This document shows, piece after piece, positions 13,837 to 39,724 of a stretch of 42,726 bases of DNA. The stretch comes from Lachnospiraceae bacterium. GTDB taxonomy: Bacteria > Bacillota > Clostridia > Lachnospirales > Lachnospiraceae. The translations under genes and the position numbers were made by a program. Position 1 is the stretch's first letter. Each line of letters begins with the position of its first letter. The notes under the pieces are model-generated. The model saw nothing but the letters and a program-made list of their open reading frames with translations, had not been told where the DNA came from and made no database searches. The DNA lies in assembly GCA_017480195.1 (NCBI GenBank), contig JAFVBE010000004.1, positions 1-42,726 on the forward strand, in the 5' to 3' direction.

Positions 13837-15093
13837 TTATTTACTCTTCCTAAGACCCTTAAGTGCATTGGAAATCTTTATCGGATTGCCATATCTTAAG
13901 GTTGAATTCCTGAATATCTTTCCACCTATAAATCCAACGAGTATGACTGATGCATAAAGGATAACTGCCGAAAGTACAATCTCCCATGTCGCTACACTTC
14001 CCATCGCAACTCTGGCGAACATCGCACTGTAAGAGCTGATTGGCAGGAACGAGCAGACCTTAATTATGACACCGTCTACATTTGTAAGATTGATAAGTAC
14101 GACAAAGTACACAATCATAATAACCATCTGAGCAGTACCTGCTGTCTTGTTCAAATCCTCAATCTTGGAGACAAGGGCTCCGAGGGCTCCGTAAAGGAAT
14201 GCATAAAGTATAAATCCACCTATTCCGAATACCGCAAAGGTTATAAGTACATCTGACGGAATATCAAGGAACATCGCTATACCGTCACCCCAGTAGTCCT
14301 TATTGACCTGATACGAGCCAAGAAGTGATAATCCTATAAGTCCCACCTGGAATATAGACGAGATAACGCTTGCAAACACCTTACCAAATAATACTGCCGT
14401 AGTCGAAGTACTGGTTACAAGTATCTCTATTGAACGATTACTCTTCTCGTTTGTAACGCTGCTTGCAACCTGCATACCGTACATGATTATAAGCATAAAG
14501 ATAATTATAACTAAGATATAGCAGTACCAGTAATTGCTTGAGCTGTCCTTACCAAGAACCTCCTCATGCATAGTTATTTCTCTATTTTCAACCTCAAGGA
14601 AGTCCTCTATGTCAATTCCATTTCGCCAGCAGTAGTCAAGCTTATTTACCATAAGCATAAGCTCTGAAAACGTCTCGGCATTGCTGTCAAACATTGATTT
14701 ATTGTTCACATAGTATGTGAAATCAACATATCCGTTTACGAAAAATCCTGCCTCAATTCCATCATCTTCCTTCATTATATCCTTCTTCATGTCTTCTACA
14801 TCAGAATAAAGTACGAATTCAACATCAGGAAAATAAATTTTAGCATACTCGGGTGTGATAAGATGTGTCTGGCCGAACAGTCCCAGCTTCACTTTCTCAT
14901 CTTCATCAGCGCCATCTACTCCATCTGCCTTCTCTACATCTGAATCGCTGTTCGACTTGAATGAATCAATAACACGAGGAGCGAACATAATACCGGCTGA
15001 TAATATGCACAGCAAAATCGTCGAAATAATAAATGACTTTGACTTAAAGTAATTATCTAATTCAAATCTTAAAACCGTTAAAAACTTCTTCAT
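13837..15093 (-). CDS. ABC-2 type permease (NatB-like)
   Basis: The 418-residue protein has one N-terminal TM segment (about 19-38), an extracellular region of about 150 residues with an acidic start (DVEKADGVDGADEDE), then five or six TM segments (from about 195) including the block MQVASSVTNEKSNRSIEILV that marks NatB/ABC-2 export permeases. It pairs with the ATPase gene whose stop overlaps its ATG (TAATG), so both are made together. The substrate is unknown; relatives export Na+, antibiotics or peptides. Confidence 0.9.
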   Translation of the reverse strand: MKKFLTVLRFELDNYFKSKSFIISTILLCILSAGIMFAPRVIDSFKSNSDSDVEKADGVDGADEDEKVKLGLFGQTHLITPEYAKIYFPDVEFVLYSDVEDMKKDIMKEDDGIEAGFFVNGYVDFTYYVNNKSMFDSNAETFSELMLMVNKLDYCWRNGIDIEDFLEVENREITMHEEVLGKDSSSNYWYCYILVIIIFMLIIMYGMQVASSVTNEKSNRSIEILVTSTSTTAVLFGKVFASVISSIFQVGLIGLSLLGSYQVNKDYWGDGIAMFLDIPSDVLITFAVFGIGGFILYAFLYGALGALVSKIEDLNKTAGTAQMVIMIVYFVVLINLTNVDGVIIKVCSFLPISSYSAMFARVAMGSVATWEIVLSAVILYASVILVGFIGGKIFRNSTLRYGNPIKISNALKGLRKSK

Positions 15094-16142
15094 TATGCCT
15101 GCACCTCCTTATCATCTTTTTCTTCCTCCAAATTAGTTTCGTTACTTTCTTTATCTTTTTTCCTGCCTAAAGCTTTCTTTTCTTTGACCGGCTTTTTATT
15201 ATCCCTGTCCTGAGTATCCTCTTCAGGTTCTTCCTCACCCACACAGGTTACGAAGATATCATTAAGCGACGGCTCATAATCACCGAAGGTTTTTATATCA
15301 ACATTCTCCTTCTTAAGTGCTTCAAGTATATCCCAGCCCGTCGTATTCTTCGCACACTCAAATATAACATGATGTTTTGAAACCCTCTCAACCTTAACCA
15401 TAGATGAAAGCTTTGATTCAAGTATTTTTCTTACTTCTTCAAGACTCATATTAGAAGCAGCAAGTTTCTTCCTACCCTTGCCGTATTCCGCCTTAATGTC
15501 ATCAAGGTGTCCCTTTAATACAGCCTCACCCTTATTGATGATAACAATATCCTCGCAGAACTCCTCAACATAACTCATCTGATGGCTTGAGAAGATAACT
15601 ATCCGACCTTCATTTATAAGCTCTCTGATAACATCCTTAAGAATCTGTGAATTAACAGGGTCAAGTCCCGAAAACGGCTCGTCAAGTATCACTATCTCAG
15701 GCTCTCCTACAAGGGTTGCCGCAAGCTGTACCTTCTGCTGATTACCCTTTGATAAGGTATCAAGCTTCCTGTCTGTATACTCGTCAACGCCAAGTCTTTT
15801 TAACCATTTTGCGGTATTGGCGGCAGCCTCCTTCTTACTAAGTCCCCTCAGACAGCCAAGATAAATCATCTGATCCTTAACAACTCTCTTCGGATATAAT
15901 CCCCTTTCCTCAGGCAGATATCCAAATCTTCTTCCATCCGGTTTAAACTTCTCTCCGTCAAGCAGAACCTCCCCTGAATCAGCATGAAATACATCCATGA
16001 TAATCCTTATGGTCGTTGTCTTACCTGCTCCATTTCTTCCGAGCAGTCCGAGCGCCTTTCCGCTCTCAACATCGAAATCAATTCCATGCAGTATTTCATT
16101 TCCTTCAAAGCTCTTTTTAATATCTTTTAATTCAAGCTTCAT
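15093..16142 (-). CDS. ABC exporter ATPase (NatA-like) with charged tail
   Basis: The 349-residue ATPase has Walker A GRNGAGKTT (35-43), a Q-loop region FGYLPEERGLYPK typical of NatA, signature LSKGNQQK, Walker B IVILDEPFSGLDP and H-loop SSHQM. The PEERGLY and SKGNQQK forms are shared with the ATPase at 30296-31240. The last ~45 residues (EEEPEEDTQDRDNKKPV...) are a very charged, probably disordered tail not needed for the ABC fold. It lies downstream of the XRE gene (18 bp) and is translationally coupled to the permease. Confidence 0.92.
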   Translation of the reverse strand: MKLELKDIKKSFEGNEILHGIDFDVESGKALGLLGRNGAGKTTTIRIIMDVFHADSGEVLLDGEKFKPDGRRFGYLPEERGLYPKRVVKDQMIYLGCLRGLSKKEAAANTAKWLKRLGVDEYTDRKLDTLSKGNQQKVQLAATLVGEPEIVILDEPFSGLDPVNSQILKDVIRELINEGRIVIFSSHQMSYVEEFCEDIVIINKGEAVLKGHLDDIKAEYGKGRKKLAASNMSLEEVRKILESKLSSMVKVERVSKHHVIFECAKNTTGWDILEALKKENVDIKTFGDYEPSLNDIFVTCVGEEEPEEDTQDRDNKKPVKEKKALGRKKDKESNETNLEEEKDDKEVQA

Positions 16143-21115: not shown

Positions 21116-21528
21116 TTAATCTAATTTGTGTCCTTTGTCTCGCAGTCCCGCTGCCGCCCTCTGCAGCATAAGCTCTGCCTCAAGATACTCCTCTACACTC
21201 TTCTTCTGGAGCCTTGCCTCGATAAGTTCCTCTTCCTTCTCTTTGGCACGATTAGCCTCAACCTCATCAGGTCGCTCGGCTGTATTAACCAAAAGAAGAA
21301 CATCATTATTCTCAATACGCATTATACCCTCAGACACTACAGCATATTCTACCGTATCGTCAGGCAGAGTATAATGCAGAGTACCCGGCACAATTGCCAC
21401 TACTACATTCCTGTGGTGAGCTAAGACACCATATTCACCATCTATGGTAGGAACGACAATCCCTTTTAGCTCTCCTTCGAAGAAAGGACTGTCCGCCTCA
21501 TATATACGTGCTTTAAAAGTATGCTCCA

Positions 21529-21529
<1 letters not shown>
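21116..21529 (-). CDS. atpC: ATP synthase epsilon subunit
   Basis: The 137-residue protein has the N-terminal beta-sandwich (FKARIYEADSPFFEGELKGI... about 1-85) and the C-terminal two-helix hairpin (RAKEKEEELIEARLQKKS...) of F1 epsilon, which regulates rotation and ATP hydrolysis. The start is GTG at 21529, sharing its first base with the last base of the atpD stop codon, so translation is coupled. It is the last gene of the operon. Confidence 0.95.
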
Positions 21530-23854
<2,325 letters not shown>

Positions 23855-23856
23855 TC

Positions 23857-25641
23857 CTACTCACCATCCCCGCTGTCAAGCTTACTTATATACTCATCTT
23901 TGTATTTTGCCGCCTCATCAATTATAGTCTGCTTGTCATCATCTGACAAAAGTCCCGTATCATCAATCCTATTACAAAGACTCATCTGATTCTCATGGAA
24001 ATATCCGAACAATTCACTTCTGAAATCAAGCATACTCTCAAGAGGTATATCCTGCATAACATGAGCTGTTGAAGCTACTAATGTAATAACCTGCTCGTGA
24101 AGCTTCATAGGATGACTCTGCGGCTGTCTCAAAAGTCTCATAAGTCCCTGACCATATACAAGCTGTCTCTTGGTCGTATCATCAAGGTCACTTGAGAACT
24201 GTGTAAATACTTCCATCTCACGATACTGTGCAAGGTCAAGTCTAATACTTCCTGCCGCCTTCTTCATAGCCTTAGTCTGTGCAGCACCACCTACACGGGA
24301 TACTGAAAGTCCGACATTTACAGCAGGTCTTTGACCTGAGAAGAAAAGCTCACTCTCAAGGAATATCTGACCGTCTGTTATGGAGATGATATTCGTCGGA
24401 ATATACGCAGATACATCTCCTGCCTGTGTCTCAACTATAGGAAGCGCAGTAAGCGAGCCGCCACCCTTCTCGGCAGAAAGATGCGCCGAACGCTCGAGCA
24501 GTCTCGAATGAAGATAGAATACATCTCCCGGAAATGCCTCTCTTCCCGGTGAACGCTCAAGCAGAAGGCTCAAAGCCCTGTATGCTATGGCATGTTTCGA
24601 TAAATCATCATATACGATAAGAACATCCTTGCCCTGCTCCATAAAATACTCTCCAAGCGCAGTACCCGCATATGGAGCAATATATTGAAGCGGTGCGGAG
24701 TCCGAAGCAGATGCATTTACAACTATGGTATAACTCATTGCGTCATGCTTGTTAAGAGTTGCTACAAGCTGTGCCACGCTGCTTGCCTTCTGTCCTATCG
24801 CAACATATATACATATAACACCGTTGCCTTTCTGATTCAGTATTGTATCAAGTGCAACCGTCGTCTTACCCGTCTGTCTGTCGCCAATTATGAGTTCTCT
24901 CTGACCTCTGCCTATAGGGAACATGGAATCAATGGCAAGAAGTCCTGTATCCATCGGCTCATTAACAGGCTGTCTGTCAATTATACTTGGTGCAGGCGTC
25001 TCTAATGCACGGTAATCCTGTGTCGGAATATCACCCTTCTTATCTATAGGATTGCCGAGCGCATCAACCACTCTTCCAACGAAGCCTTCACCTACAGCTA
25101 TACCCGCCGTCTTCTTAGTCCTTCTGACACGGCTTCCGTCAGTTATATCCTCGTCATCACCAAAAAGTACTACACCGATTTCGCCGCGTCGCAAATCCTG
25201 AACCATTCCCTTGACACCTGATTCAAATACAACTATCTCACCGTATCTTACCGCATCAAGTCCGGTCACAACTATTATACCGTCTCCGACAGTCTTGACG
25301 AAACCTTCCTCCTCCGGTACAGCCTCCAATGTAAAATCATCTATCGACTTCCTAAGAAGCGTTATCATCTGCTCAGGCTGTGACTTACTTGCATATCTGC
25401 CTGAAATCTCTGACAATAAATCCTTGAACTGTCCGAGTCTTCCCTCAGGCGTCCAGTTGTAAACCTCGCCCTCATATTCAAGCTTGAAGCCGCGTATATC
25501 ATTATCCGCCACCCATTCAAGCTCTATATCCTTATCATATTTATTCTTAAGAAAGCTCTCAAATCTTACCTTCTGTTCATCTGACGGTGCAGCCTTGGCA
25601 TAGAGATAAGCGATAGATTTTTCAGGAGTATTATTGTCCAT
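23857..25641 (-). CDS. atpA: ATP synthase alpha subunit with fused delta C-terminal domain
   Basis: The 594-residue protein is about 90 residues longer than a normal alpha subunit. Residues 18-80 (SDEQKVRFESFL...DIELEWVADNDIRGFKLEYEGEVYNW...GRLGQFKDLL, quoted with gaps) match the C-terminal domain of the delta/OSCP subunit; alpha proper starts around 86 (SQPEQMITLLRKSIDDF). Walker A GDRQTGKT (253-260) and the PQSHPMKLHEQV region are intact. No separate atpH exists: atpF overlaps this start by 11 bp. Alpha's N-terminus normally binds delta's N-terminal domain at the top of F1, and that delta N-terminal domain is not encoded here. I infer the fusion replaces delta as the stator link to subunit b. 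Confidence 0.93.
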   Translation of the reverse strand: MDNNTPEKSIAYLYAKAAPSDEQKVRFESFLKNKYDKDIELEWVADNDIRGFKLEYEGEVYNWTPEGRLGQFKDLLSEISGRYASKSQPEQMITLLRKSIDDFTLEAVPEEEGFVKTVGDGIIVVTGLDAVRYGEIVVFESGVKGMVQDLRRGEIGVVLFGDDEDITDGSRVRRTKKTAGIAVGEGFVGRVVDALGNPIDKKGDIPTQDYRALETPAPSIIDRQPVNEPMDTGLLAIDSMFPIGRGQRELIIGDRQTGKTTVALDTILNQKGNGVICIYVAIGQKASSVAQLVATLNKHDAMSYTIVVNASASDSAPLQYIAPYAGTALGEYFMEQGKDVLIVYDDLSKHAIAYRALSLLLERSPGREAFPGDVFYLHSRLLERSAHLSAEKGGGSLTALPIVETQAGDVSAYIPTNIISITDGQIFLESELFFSGQRPAVNVGLSVSRVGGAAQTKAMKKAAGSIRLDLAQYREMEVFTQFSSDLDDTTKRQLVYGQGLMRLLRQPQSHPMKLHEQVITLVASTAHVMQDIPLESMLDFRSELFGYFHENQMSLCNRIDDTGLLSDDDKQTIIDEAAKYKDEYISKLDSGDGE

Positions 25642-26137
25642 CCTTTACACTCCTTTCGGCATCCTCTAAGAACACATCATATGCCTTTTCAATATCATCA
25701 CTCATAAATATCTTCTCAGCAGCCTGACTTACCATATCAGTTATATCCTTGCTGGCGCTGTTGATAATATTAGCACGAACACTCTCTGCTTCCTTCTTGG
25801 CATCATCTACTATCTTGTCTGCCTTTTCCTTAGCTTCCTTTTCCTTATCGGCACGAAGTGTATCAAGCTCTGCTGCCACAGCCTTCTTCTTGTCAGCTAT
25901 CTCATCATCCACAGCCTTAAGCTTATTCTGATACTCCTCCTCACTTGCCTTAGCGTTGGCAAGCTTCTCATTTGCCTCATCATCAAGACTCTTGTAATGA
26001 GCCTCTCTCTTATCCATAAAGTCCTTAACCGGCTTATATAACAGGATATATAATCCGAAGAAAAGTATCGCAAAGTTAGCAAGATGGAGTAATATCTGCT
26101 GGAAGTCTATATTAAGTGGTAATCCTGTAAGTATCAT
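25631..26137 (-). CDS. atpF: ATP synthase b subunit (stator)
   Basis: The 168-residue protein has one N-terminal membrane segment (about 18-37, HLANFAILFFGLYILLY) followed by a long charged helix (EEEYQNKLKAVDDEIADKK...) forming the peripheral stalk dimer. The ATG at 26137 has GGAAGG 8 bases upstream; a GTG 9 bases earlier is too close. It overlaps atpA by 11 bp; with no separate delta, its C-terminus presumably meets the delta-like domain on AtpA. Confidence 0.95.
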   Translation of the reverse strand: MILTGLPLNIDFQQILLHLANFAILFFGLYILLYKPVKDFMDKREAHYKSLDDEANEKLANAKASEEEYQNKLKAVDDEIADKKKAVAAELDTLRADKEKEAKEKADKIVDDAKKEAESVRANIINSASKDITDMVSQAAEKIFMSDDIEKAYDVFLEDAERSVKDGQ

Positions 26138-26155
26138 ATTACGCACCTTCCTTTA

Positions 26156-26626
<471 letters not shown>

Positions 26627-26662: not shown

Positions 26663-27526
26663 TCAGGCTTCCTGTACCTCACCGGACTGAATATCCTGCT
26701 TAACCTTCTTTTCCTTCTTCTCCTTAGGCTTAGGCGGCTCCGAAACCTCTCCGTAGAATATGGTTGTTAAAAGCGTCAGCACATATGCCTGTATAAGCGC
26801 ATGAAGCAATGTGAACAACACTCCTACAACTACCGGAAGCAATATCGAAAGTCCCAGAGTGAAATATATAAGCTCCGTAACCAACATACCTGAGAGCAAA
26901 GCTCCAAATAGACGGAAGCTCATAGAAAGAGGAAGCGAAAACTCCTTAAGCGTAAGTCCCACACCTCTTAGCTTATTATTCATAATACCGCCTGAAAGTA
27001 TGACAAGATATGATAAGCATCCCATCATAATCGCACCATTTATATCTGCAAGCGGTGCAGGAAGTGATATCGAGTGTCCCTCCGTAGTTATCGCCTGAAA
27101 TCCGAACAGCTCGAACAGTGTACCTACGAATACATAAGTTCCTGTTGCAAATACATATGCACCTAAAAATCCATTGCTGTGTGGACTATTTGTCTTTGCC
27201 AGATTATCGAAAAATCCAACCCATGTCTCAAGTAAGAGCTGGAATTTCCCCGGCACATTCTTGAATCTCGGAATAACGAAGATTCTTACAATCAAGGCAA
27301 ACAAAAGTATAATCGCCGTCACCGTAAATCCTGCTATGAGCGACGGATTAACCGAAAGTCCAAACAGGCTTATCCTGTTTTCTTCGTGGAGTACCGCATC
27401 TCTCATCATTTCCTTGATAGTCTCATGCTTCTCTACCGCTCCATTCGTAAATGCTATACCGGCAGCAAGCACAAGCTCAATGACGATGAGTAATATGATG
27501 GCAGTCGTCCTTTTCTTTTTACTCAA
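26663..27526 (-). CDS. atpB: ATP synthase a subunit
   Basis: The ~287-residue membrane protein is the Fo stator channel. The essential Arg is in PLSMSFRLFGALLSG (about residue 205), and the last helix region LLHALIQAYVLTLLTTIFYG is typical. A lysine-rich cytoplasmic tail (PPKPKEKKEKKVKQ) follows. There is no ATG: two in-frame TTG codons lie at 27532 and 27526; I chose 27526 because GGAG is 9 bases upstream. It is first in the operon atpB-E-F-A-G-D-C, driven by the promoter at 27574-27602. Confidence 0.95.
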   Translation of the reverse strand: MSKKKRTTAIILLIVIELVLAAGIAFTNGAVEKHETIKEMMRDAVLHEENRISLFGLSVNPSLIAGFTVTAIILLFALIVRIFVIPRFKNVPGKFQLLLETWVGFFDNLAKTNSPHSNGFLGAYVFATGTYVFVGTLFELFGFQAITTEGHSISLPAPLADINGAIMMGCLSYLVILSGGIMNNKLRGVGLTLKEFSLPLSMSFRLFGALLSGMLVTELIYFTLGLSILLPVVVGVLFTLLHALIQAYVLTLLTTIFYGEVSEPPKPKEKKEKKVKQDIQSGEVQEA

Positions 27527-27573
27527 AACCAAAGACTCCTTTCCTTGTAAAATATGTAATTAATCCGTGGATA

Positions 27574-27620: not shown

Positions 27621-28976
27621 TTATCCCTTGCCAAGCAAATTACCAAGCACATCCTTGGAGTTTATCCTGTTACCCTTAAAAAGTGATGTCATCTTGTATA
27701 TACGACCTGCTATCGTTACAAATACCAGCGTAAATATTATCATTATAATAAATGATATAATGCCTTCTGCAAGACCTGCCTGTCCTAAGCTTAAATCCGC
27801 CGGCATTATAAGTGCTGCTGTGAACGGTATGAATTTTAACACAGCAGGAGCCCTGCCCTCTAAGCCGCCTAAACCAAATAATGCAAAGAAGCTTATAATA
27901 AGCGGAAGTACAAATATCGTAGTCTTATTACCGGCATCCTCCTTGCTGTTAGATAAAGCTCCAGCTATGGCAGCTATAGAGGAATACATCACAAATCCGA
28001 ATATTATAAATAATACTGCAAGTATAACATTTACCGGTCTGAATATATTAAGCTCCTTCATCGCATCAAAGAATAACACAATTCCAAGATGACTGTCAGG
28101 GAAAAGCTGTTTTGTAATTTTAGTACCTATGAACATTCCCAAGCTTATAGATAATACCCAGGACATAAGCTGTAAAAGTCCTGCTAAGATACAGCCTAAC
28201 AGCTTACCGAAAATAAGCGACTCAGGCTTAAGTGTAATAAGCATGGTATCCATAAGCTTTGATTCCTTCTCCATAATCATGTTCATGGTAATGGTATTCC
28301 CGTACATAAGAATCATAAAATAAAGCAGCATCAGGCTTATATAGGGCATGGCAAATCTGAATATCTCAAGAACTTCATCCGTTGCCTTCTCATCGTTTTT
28401 CTCAACCTGTGAGCTTAAAGAATAACCGTCCATATAACCTGTCTCGTCGTAGGTTTCATATTCATTCGGAAGGCTCAGCTTATTTAATGAATAAAAATCA
28501 ATTCCGGAGACAAGTATCAGAAAATACTGCTCGTACTTATCCACGAATTCAAAATAATTCTTCGCATCTTCATTATCTATATTGGATTTCTCAGGGATAA
28601 TTATACTGACATTAACACTTGATGTGTTCTCTTCAAAAAGCAATACCAGGCTATCCTCTCCTGAATCTTCACATGCATCTTCTGCGGACTTTGCACTAAC
28701 ATATCTGATATCATCATAATTCTCCTCATGCAAAAGATTGAGTTGTTCCATAGCTATCTCATTATCCGAGACTTCATTTACATAATATATAGTCTTTGCA
28801 CCACAGGCATCTATAGCTTTGTCCTCATCATCTGATTTTGCCGCACATGAAATAAGCATAATTACCGATGGGACTATCAATAGAAGAAGTGAAACAATTA
28901 TGGTAAATATCTTATAAGCCTTACTTGTCTGATTATGAAATGTAAATCGTACGACCTTAGAAAAATTCCTAAACAT
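27621..28976 (-). CDS. ABC-2 type export permease, second of a pair
   Basis: The 451-residue protein has an N-terminal TM segment (about 24-44), an extracellular region (about 45-205) and six TM segments, with the NatB-type block NTITMNMIMEKESKLMDTML after the second TM. It resembles its neighbour at 28978-30303 in size and layout, so the two likely form a heterodimer driven by the ATPase at 30296. GGAGGG precedes ATG; the intergenic gap is 1 bp. The substrate is unknown. Confidence 0.9.
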   Translation of the reverse strand: MFRNFSKVVRFTFHNQTSKAYKIFTIIVSLLLLIVPSVIMLISCAAKSDDEDKAIDACGAKTIYYVNEVSDNEIAMEQLNLLHEENYDDIRYVSAKSAEDACEDSGEDSLVLLFEENTSSVNVSIIIPEKSNIDNEDAKNYFEFVDKYEQYFLILVSGIDFYSLNKLSLPNEYETYDETGYMDGYSLSSQVEKNDEKATDEVLEIFRFAMPYISLMLLYFMILMYGNTITMNMIMEKESKLMDTMLITLKPESLIFGKLLGCILAGLLQLMSWVLSISLGMFIGTKITKQLFPDSHLGIVLFFDAMKELNIFRPVNVILAVLFIIFGFVMYSSIAAIAGALSNSKEDAGNKTTIFVLPLIISFFALFGLGGLEGRAPAVLKFIPFTAALIMPADLSLGQAGLAEGIISFIIMIIFTLVFVTIAGRIYKMTSLFKGNRINSKDVLGNLLGKG

Positions 28977-28977
28977 A

Positions 28978-30303
28978 TCAGTTTCCCTCCTTTGCCAGCT
29001 TCAATATCTCCTTAAGCTTAAGTGTCTTACTGTCATTGACTATAAGCTTCCTGTAAACCTTTGCGCACAATATGAACAAAAGATATAAAAATCCTATCTG
29101 AATTATAAGCGATATGCCGAATACCACAGCGCTTATCCTTCCACATACGAAGTAAATCGGCGCAACATAAGACGATATAAAAGGTACCAGCGAAAGAATT
29201 ATGCCAACACTCTGCTTCTCGACAGTAGGCACAATAAATGCTATAAAATATCCTACAAAGGCAAATATCATTACCACGCCAAGCGCCTGCCCTGCATCCT
29301 CAAGCCTCGTGCACGCACTACCCATTATACCTGATATAATAGCATACATAAGATATGCTATTATCAAGGTTATAAGCAATATGATTATTTTCCCTGCACC
29401 TAAATCAAATATCCGACCAAAGTTAAGCAGCGAAGTCACTGCCTCAGACTTTGGAGGAACTATGGATTTTACAAGCTTATCCGTAAATATCGCCAAAACT
29501 ATTCCCGTTACAAGCATAGACAATACATAGGTCATCATGGCAAATATCTTACCCATCACAAGTGCCAGTGGTCTTACACTTACAAGCAGATTCTCAACAA
29601 GCTTCGACGACTTTTCTTCTATAACCGAATTAACTATAGCACCGGTACTGATTGATACAATGAATAAAATCATAACCGCATAGATTGCCATATATCCCTC
29701 GACATCTCCTGAAGTATATGAGCCACTTGAAATAATCCTGTAATCCCCCTCTGTATATACCGTACCCATGTACATAGTCTTATTTAACACGGCAATATCT
29801 TCATCCGAAATATCCGCATCAATCCTTCTTGCCTGTACGAATTTATCTGATATATATTCTGATATTCCGTCTATCTCATTTGCAGATATCTTAGAATTAT
29901 CGGAGATAACACCATTAATAATATAGCCTTCCTCCATAGAAAAGGTTATATCGACAAACACCTCAGTCTCATTAAGTGAGGTGATACCATCTACAAATTC
30001 AACCGGGACATCCTTATATGAGGTCTTGGATAATTCCATTATCTCCTCATTAAAATCAATATCGGTTTTGTTGAATATATAAATATTACTTACCTCTGTC
30101 TCACCGGAATATACTACATCATTCCCCTGAACTGCACTTACACCTATGTTCCCGGAGAGATATGTTATAGGTCCCATAAATGCTATGAGCAGCACGAATA
30201 CAATAAAATTAGTCCTGTATGTCTTGCTCTTGAAGGTCTCCTGTAAGGTGAATTTATATACCTTATTCATCCCCTTCATACTGTATATACTATCCTTATT
30301 CAT
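28978..30303 (-). CDS. ABC-2 type export permease, first of a pair
   Basis: The 441-residue protein has TM1 near 31-50, an extracellular region of about 160 residues, and six TM segments, including the block TGAIVNSVIEEKSSKLVENL that marks NatB-type permeases. It overlaps the ATPase gene by 8 bp, with GGAGGTAGG upstream of ATG. It likely exports an unknown substrate with the adjacent permease. Confidence 0.9.
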   Translation of the reverse strand: MNKDSIYSMKGMNKVYKFTLQETFKSKTYRTNFIVFVLLIAFMGPITYLSGNIGVSAVQGNDVVYSGETEVSNIYIFNKTDIDFNEEIMELSKTSYKDVPVEFVDGITSLNETEVFVDITFSMEEGYIINGVISDNSKISANEIDGISEYISDKFVQARRIDADISDEDIAVLNKTMYMGTVYTEGDYRIISSGSYTSGDVEGYMAIYAVMILFIVSISTGAIVNSVIEEKSSKLVENLLVSVRPLALVMGKIFAMMTYVLSMLVTGIVLAIFTDKLVKSIVPPKSEAVTSLLNFGRIFDLGAGKIIILLITLIIAYLMYAIISGIMGSACTRLEDAGQALGVVMIFAFVGYFIAFIVPTVEKQSVGIILSLVPFISSYVAPIYFVCGRISAVVFGISLIIQIGFLYLLFILCAKVYRKLIVNDSKTLKLKEILKLAKEGN

Positions 30304-31240
30304 CAGCGCCTACCTCCTTGACAAATATCTCATGTAAGGAAAGCTCTGATAAGTCGAATTTTATCACATTTATTTTATTCTCAACAAGCTTCGCCAAAAG
30401 CTCATTCGCCTGTGCGTCTCCCGTAACCTTAAGGCTGTACTCACACTCCTTGTCAGTAAGCACGGTAATGCCCATCTTGTCTATGATACTGCGACAGTCC
30501 TGTTCACACTTAAGGTTAAGGTTTACTCTGCCATAGCCCTTCTTAATCTCATTCAGGTTACCCTTAACTACAGCCTTAGCCTTGGATAATATCGTTATAT
30601 CAGTACAGAATTCTTCAACCACTGCCATCTGATGACTCGACATAATAATAAATTTGCCTGCCTCTATCTGCTCACGAACAACATTCTTCAATATGTCAGT
30701 ATTAACCGGATCAAGTCCGGAAAATGGTTCGTCAAGCACTATAAGTTCCGGGTCAGACAGCATGGCAATAAGGAACTGTATCTTCTGCTGATTACCCTTC
30801 GAGAGCTGATCAGGGCTCTTAGGCTTAACCTTTTTCTTTCTGCCTTTCTTGTCCTCACTCGCTGTCGGATACAGGTACTCATCAAGCTTAAGTCTGTCAG
30901 ACCAATAGCGTATCTTCTCATCTAATTCATCCTCCGGTACATCACGCAATCTGCCAAAATATTTAATCTGATCCATAAGAGGATACTTGAGATACAGACC
31001 TCTTTCCTCAGCAAGATAACCTATATTACAAGTCTCAAAGCTAAGCGGTCGGTCATTCCACAACACCTCTCCCGTATTCTTATCAAGCATATCCAGTATC
31101 ATACGAATAGTGGTTGTCTTGCCTGCTCCATTAGTACCAAGAAGTGCGTACACTCCCGGTTTATCCATCTCAAAGCTTATATGGTCAACAACCGTCTTAT
31201 CTCCGTATTTCTTAGATAAATCCCTAACAATAAGTCCCAT
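30296..31240 (-). CDS. ABC exporter ATPase (NatA-like)
   Basis: The 314-residue ATPase has Walker A GTNGAGKTT (34-42), IGYLAEERGLYLK in the Q-loop region, signature LSKGNQQK, Walker B LIVLDEPFSGLDP and H-loop SSHQM. A lysine-rich insert (SEDKKGRKKKVKPKSPD) precedes the signature, unlike the paralogue at 15093-16142. RBS GGAGGGAG lies before the ATG. It starts a three-gene exporter operon after the terminator of the two-component system. Confidence 0.93.
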   Translation of the reverse strand: MGLIVRDLSKKYGDKTVVDHISFEMDKPGVYALLGTNGAGKTTTIRMILDMLDKNTGEVLWNDRPLSFETCNIGYLAEERGLYLKYPLMDQIKYFGRLRDVPEDELDEKIRYWSDRLKLDEYLYPTASEDKKGRKKKVKPKSPDQLSKGNQQKIQFLIAMLSDPELIVLDEPFSGLDPVNTDILKNVVREQIEAGKFIIMSSHQMAVVEEFCTDITILSKAKAVVKGNLNEIKKGYGRVNLNLKCEQDCRSIIDKMGITVLTDKECEYSLKVTGDAQANELLAKLVENKINVIKFDLSELSLHEIFVKEVGADE

Positions 31241-39600: not shown

Positions 39601-39637
39601 GTTCGTTTCCCCCTTTTTATTCTTTAATAAAAGAAAA

Positions 39638-39710
39638 AGCTTCTGATGGGACTCGAACCCACGACCTACGCATTACGAATGCGACGCTCTACCAACTGAG
39701 CCACAGAAGC
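39638..39710 (-). tRNA. tRNA-Thr (anticodon CGT)
   Basis: A complete cloverleaf is visible on the minus strand: acceptor GCTTCTG/CAGAAGC, D arm GCTC-AGTTGGTA-GAGC, anticodon loop TTCGTAA (CGT, reading ACG), T arm GTGGG-TTCGAGT-CCCAT. CCA is not encoded; TTTTTC follows. The first anticodon-stem pair (27-43) is T-T, otherwise normal. A promoter TTGTAT-17-TATAAT lies at 39725-39753. Confidence 0.95.
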
Positions 39711-39724
39711 TTACAACAAAAATT

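Follow-up and report, generated by a model that had tools for sequence, protein, structure and literature searches.

Where is the delta subunit in an F-type ATP synthase operon that has no atpH, and how many peripheral stalks could the resulting enzyme hold? The question was raised by a stretch of 42,726 nucleotides from the genome of a gut Lachnospiraceae bacterium, called the window in the following. A complete F-type operon lies on its minus strand (27532-21116) in the order B-E-F-A-G-D-C, i.e. a, c, b, alpha, gamma, beta and epsilon (Table 1). An earlier note on this DNA had pointed out that there is no space for atpH between atpF and atpA, which is borne out by their overlap of 11 bp, and had read the extra N-terminal residues of AtpA as the C-terminal domain (CTD) of F1 delta.

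Table 1. Features of the fused ATP synthase operon in the window.
Feature	Position	Strand	Remark
atpB	26663..27532	-	a subunit, 289 aa
atpE	26156..26611	-	c subunit, 151 aa; N-terminally extended by about 80 aa (signal-peptide-like); c hairpin lacks the Na+ signature
atpF	25631..26146	-	b subunit, 171 aa; 11 bp shared with atpA
Shine-Dalgarno AAAGGAG	25650..25656	-	inside atpF, 8 nt ahead of the ATG of the fusion
atpA	23857..25641	-	delta-CTD-alpha fusion, 594 aa
Delta CTD part of AtpA	25402..25617	-	about residues 9-80
Alpha N-terminal helix	25336..25377	-	about residues 89-102, kept past the linker; meets delta in ordinary F1
atpG	22922..23854	-	gamma subunit, 310 aa
atpD	21529..22929	-	beta subunit, 466 aa
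atpC	21116..21529	-	epsilon subunit, 137 aa

The whole AtpA protein scores 734.2 bits against the F-type alpha family TIGR00962 (curated cut-off 484.45) and 607.6 bits against the N-ATPase family TIGR03324, which is under the cut-off of 750.5. The atpA family model begins matching at residue 88. For the N-terminal domain, hhalign gave an E-value of 1.8e-6 against PF00213 (F1 delta/OSCP), and the match to the delta model begins at position 101, the six-helix N-terminal domain of delta being absent. In a profile search with PF00213 the domain's own score of 14.8 bits stayed below the Pfam cut-off of 22.3. Among the CTD-only relatives, 40 of the 42 searched were over this cut-off, with 58.7 bits as the best score.

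When the modelled fold of the N-terminal domain was compared with known structures, ATP synthase entries filled the first 45 of 50 rows. A full-length AtpA model from AlphaFold2 was poor overall (pLDDT 62.6) and served only as a second look at this domain. With phmmer, residues 9-574 of AtpA align unbroken to residues 6-569 of an engineered fusion (PDB 9jc1_I), and for the 59 other chains among the matches listed the alignment begins at AtpA residue 82 or later. We regard it as confirmed, as far as sequence analysis goes, that AtpA carries a translated homologue of the delta CTD, fused ahead of a kept alpha N-terminal helix; the CTD identity (by hhalign and fold match) and the loss of the N-terminal domain are both as the earlier note had them, and a missing fold match, one of the findings by which the note would have been refuted, did not arise. 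The joining of the delta CTD to alpha is as good as certain. Both the alpha N-terminal helix and the C-terminal region of b are retained in the fused type, and the C-terminal region of AtpF is similar to b subunits from operons with a separate delta.

Delta is joined to another stator subunit also in the mycobacterial b-delta fusion (PDB 7jg5), the delta part of which matches the N-domain model. There the partner is b, one such protein is present per complex and the N-domain of delta is retained. The N-ATPase (alternate F1F0, TIGR03324 family) has an F-type operon without atpH, and its alpha subunit is not known to carry a delta CTD. The window operon differs from it in gene order (operon type in PMC5709465). 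Among the transcription units listed in PMC5709465 (passages cited here) is one from Clostridia that lacks delta and may be of the same kind as the window operon. PMC4478896 (passages cited here) reports a full set of F0F1 subunits for each of 62 rumen butyrivibrio genomes. Among the matches listed from open-licence papers there was no fusion from Lachnospiraceae and no full-length delta-alpha fusion, and within that scope the breadth in Lachnospirales, the existence of a full-length form and the recurrent loss of the N-domain appear to be new.

A delta-alpha gene fusion without the N-domain of delta is shared with Acidaminococcus fermentans, which belongs to a lineage other than Lachnospirales, and with the UniProt entries G4Q3K6 and A0A1I2C5T3. 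These are the natural delta-alpha fusions named by Ueno et al. 2025 (PMC12229609); the comparison with A. fermentans follows the description in that paper and not the sequence, and the passages cited here name no full-length fusion. The same authors removed residues 2-104 of delta from Bacillus PS3 and joined the CTD through a short linker to the N-terminus of alpha, with no separate delta and with the C-terminal domain of epsilon also removed. The engineered enzyme was found with as many as three stalks, an a subunit accompanying each, and its H+/ATP ratio was 5.8 versus 3.0. Cryo-EM particles with 0, 1, 2 and 3 stalks made up 15, 51, 26 and 8%, which gives a mean of 1.26, and the mean by gels and by H+/ATP was higher, about 2 (PMC12229609). 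The likeness to the window lies in a delta CTD placed in frame ahead of alpha, an absent N-domain and an operon without delta; the difference is that the engineered fusion (PDB 9jc1) is man-made and its stalks were measured, whereas the window enzyme is a natural one predicted from its genes. Since Ueno et al. built the same fusion and named natural cases, the window belongs to a recently recognised kind of fusion.

In ordinary F1, according to the same paper (PMC12229609, passages cited here), the N-domain of delta occupies the threefold axis, where it touches the N-termini of two alphas; the third N-terminus is contacted by the C-terminal region of delta, and b2 binds delta. We propose that the fused operon encodes a second F-type ATP synthase, in which delta has been cut down to its b-binding CTD on the N-terminus of alpha. 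All three alphas would then carry a delta CTD and the threefold axis would be without the N-domain, and for these reasons each alpha would be an equivalent dock for a b2 dimer. By analogy with engineered PS3, such an enzyme could have two or more peripheral stalks and an a subunit for each of them. It would run in a low gear, i.e. with more H+ per ATP, and could synthesise ATP at low proton-motive force or pump more protons per ATP hydrolysed. To this reading as a whole, a second, probably H+-coupled synthase with the delta CTD on alpha, capable of several stalks and of a low gear, we assign a probability of roughly 0.6. That the native enzyme actually holds more than one stalk, as its engineered counterpart does, has in our estimate slightly less than an even chance. 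The expectation in the earlier note of three delta-like domains per F1 agrees with what the gene encodes, and its suggestion that the b dimer binds one of them may be too modest, given up to three b2 dimers in the engineered equivalent.

In total 99 loci were analysed: 24 with separate delta and alpha, 23 with a full-length delta-alpha fusion and 52 with the CTD-only form of the window. The full-length fusions are 669-756 aa long and cover delta positions from 2-19 to 164-171, and the CTD-only fusions cover positions from 84-101 to 156-171. The spacing between b and the fused reading frame ranges from -17 to +6 bp in full fusions and from -101 to +86 bp in CTD-only ones; in separate-gene loci b and alpha are 480-589 bp apart. 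In the separate-gene relatives of the fused group (type 2), delta and alpha overlap by 4 bp in 10 of the 14 loci, which we infer to be a natural start for a fusion. Three N-domains per F1 are to be expected in the full-length fusions (23 loci, L048-L051 and L106-L124), where the axis fits one. The longest of all 75 fused AtpA proteins is a full-length one of 756 aa (L106, genome G425), which has about 80 extra residues at the C-terminal end of alpha compared with other full fusions.

The N-domain of delta has been lost repeatedly. A tree of the alpha core and beta (56 of the 99 loci, mixture model) needs seven changes for the CTD-only state, five of them forced by well-supported branches. Full-length and CTD-only forms are well-supported sisters in the genome pairs G249/G108 and G413/G347, each within one genus, and in G360/G354 and G315/G397. 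Beta alone gives six changes, five of them forced, with high support for G249/G108 and G315/G397 and lower support for G360/G354 (97/78), and does not resolve G413/G347. The AU test spoke against a single origin of the CTD-only form, which it rejected with p 1e-30 (27 rows versus 29); the grouping for this test was picked after a quick tree had been seen. The fused state changes four times on the quick tree, and the separate state two and three times on the careful trees. The placement of the deepest groups (the window clade and the clade of family f17) is poorly supported, including whether a full-length fusion preceded the CTD-only form. A decaying N-domain in the full fusions was considered and is not supported; its identity is 0.38, compared with 0.36 in separate type-2 delta (alpha identity 0.75-0.80; pairs are not independent).

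The fused enzyme may nevertheless have a single stalk, a reading to which we give serious weight while holding it somewhat short of even odds. Here only one of three CTDs would recruit b2 and a, either by the usual amounts of b and a or because the first stalk hinders the others, and the fusion would merely save a subunit or make docking firmer. As a rule, every ATP synthase known to date has a single peripheral stalk and a single a subunit; the engineered fusion broke this rule, and even there 51% of the particles had one stalk (PMC12229609, passages cited here). Since full-length fusions persist (23 of the 75 fused loci), a fusion as such needs no multiple stalks, and the operon, with a single a gene and a single b gene, shows no sign of extra synthesis of either. 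Against a single stalk, the N-domain, which is held to enforce it, was repeatedly lost once fused, and the engineered twin has about two stalks on average by gel and H+/ATP (PMC12229609).

The multi-stalk reading supposes that every alpha carries the CTD. Internal initiation or proteolysis could instead give heads with one fused and two plain alphas, mimicking the usual ratio of one delta to three alphas. In the window protein, Met92 sits at the expected start of alpha, and 16 codons ahead of the alpha core there is an in-frame TTG with a marginal Shine-Dalgarno energy of -4.7; this TTG is found also in the relative L036 and is absent from L037-L042. The energy at Met92 is -1.5, and the residue is not conserved. 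Start signals were evaluated as duplex energy with the nine-letter anti-Shine-Dalgarno sequence at a threshold of -4.5, a test that does not reach weak starts or proteolysis. An in-frame start with a strong signal near the alpha start occurs in 23 of the 24 separate-gene loci (median of the best -13.6), but in only 3 of the 23 full fusions and 16 of the 52 CTD-only fusions (the window among them), against a background of 30% of 1089 windows inside alpha. As strong internal starts are no more common than background, the fusions as a group have lost the start signal of alpha, and all three alphas would probably carry the delta CTD. The full fusions themselves start with GTG in 18 of 23 loci and have an energy of -8.3 in 15 of 23.

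Selection was estimated from 13 of the 28 pairs among eight members of the genus: dN/dS is 0.045-0.174 for the N-terminal domain and 0.007-0.062 for alpha, ratios that are rough since most dS values exceed 1. When pairs of the same alpha divergence are compared, the CTD of delta shows higher conservation in fusions than in separate delta. For an alpha identity of 0.75-0.80 the CTD identity is 0.54 in CTD-only fusions (49 pairs), 0.47 in full fusions (45) and 0.39 in separate type 2 (46), the pairs again not being independent; in the bin 0.80-0.85 the gap is small, 0.55 in full fusions versus 0.51 in type-1 separate delta. A translation start near residue 86-92 (near residue 86 in the earlier note, as one of the findings that would refute it) is unlikely by both the start signals and dN/dS, and we consider mixed heads improbable.

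The claim that atpH is missing was true of the fused operon and did not extend to the genome, where contig C38 has a complete canonical operon that includes a full-length delta gene (160 bits). A separate full-length atpH was among the findings that the earlier note had named as refuting; taken literally it exists, but as part of this second operon. This delta could in principle cap the fused F1 in trans, the more so as the alpha part of the fusion still has the N-terminal helix region that contacts delta. Delta and AtpA were searched for in 61 of the 63 fused genomes (G000 and G026 left out). The fused AtpA is the sole AtpA in 20 of the 61, and 16 of these 20 are at least 90% complete (14 CTD-only, 2 full-length). 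In these 16 genomes no separate delta was found at E 0.01, and the sole OSCP match was the fused one. The fused type therefore needs no separate atpH, and a hybrid enzyme is very improbable. In all 42 separate deltas from these 61 genomes the N-domain is present (model start 1-13), so that its loss is seen in fusions only.

In the genus of the window, 17 of 37 genomes have a fused AtpA (its own included), and 16 of these 17 also have an AtpA without fusion. The distribution is patchy: 13 genomes, own included, are CTD-only and 4 full-length, in different tree clades, which suggests transfer or differential loss of whole operons. An in-frame fusion free of stops occurs in at least 63 of the 392 genomes from the order Lachnospirales (matches to about E 2e-33). 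Of 398 genomes sampled from the phylum, 8 match at E 1e-40, a threshold below which more divergent fusions could fall; five of these are in-frame fusions, i.e. the window, three further members of its family and G692, from a different order of the class, and three have a stop inside the match. Although the assembly is a draft (84.7% complete, 5.5% contamination), an artefact, whether chimera, contamination or pseudogene, is practically ruled out by the 17 of 37 genomes, by one of these (G005) with both operons on one contig of 2.9 Mb and by the low dN/dS.

The coupling ion was assessed from the c subunit. In the ten canonical type-1 c subunits the residue that corresponds to Ilyobacter Q32 is Q (6) or E (4), and E-T-T and Y are present as well, which is a Na+ signature; the canonical operon of the window's genome has a c subunit of this type. 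In the 88 other c subunits analysed, from 14 loci with separate type-2 genes, 23 full fusions and 51 CTD-only fusions, this residue is I, M or L, and the fused enzyme is therefore probably H+-coupled, next to a probably Na+-coupled synthase. As a source of proton-motive force an Ech-type [NiFe] hydrogenase was considered and set aside, there being no PF00374 match in the genome, which is weak evidence since the genome is 84.7% complete; rnfC is present.

Ueno et al. suggested that nature may break the one-stalk rule too, and predict multi-stalk enzymes in nature (PMC12229609, passages cited here). Beyond the few database entries named so far, the natural case now spans a bacterial order, in which some genomes have the fused enzyme as the only F-type ATP synthase found. 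An evolutionary series is supplied as well, from separate genes to full fusion to loss of the N-domain, with species of the same genus that differ in just this feature. With this series and these species, the question of native multi-stalk enzymes and their effect on H+/ATP becomes directly testable in anaerobes with a low energy supply. We tentatively suggest that many Lachnospirales run multi-stalk synthases, the repeated N-domain losses allowing up to three b2-a stalks and about 2-3 times the H+/ATP, here beside a normal, probably Na+-coupled synthase. If the multi-stalk reading is true, these would be native low-gear ATP synthases in anaerobes that live on little energy.

A search of the window for RNA families and tRNAs gave nothing at the operon and only a tRNA-Thr at 39637-39711. 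The N-terminus of the window's c subunit, about 80 aa ahead of the hairpin, combines a signal-peptide-like segment with an acidic stretch. Such extended c subunits (116-181 aa) occur in all 24 loci with a readable c in the 25-row fusion clade of the window, and those of the other 50 fused loci have at most 94 aa; an outward-facing collar of the c-ring and a cleaved leader are candidate readings. Directly upstream of atpB, on the minus strand (27621-31240), two ABC-2 permeases and an ABC ATPase are encoded, resembling a NatAB-type exporter, and a second ABC ATPase/permease pair lies at 13837-16142 of the window.
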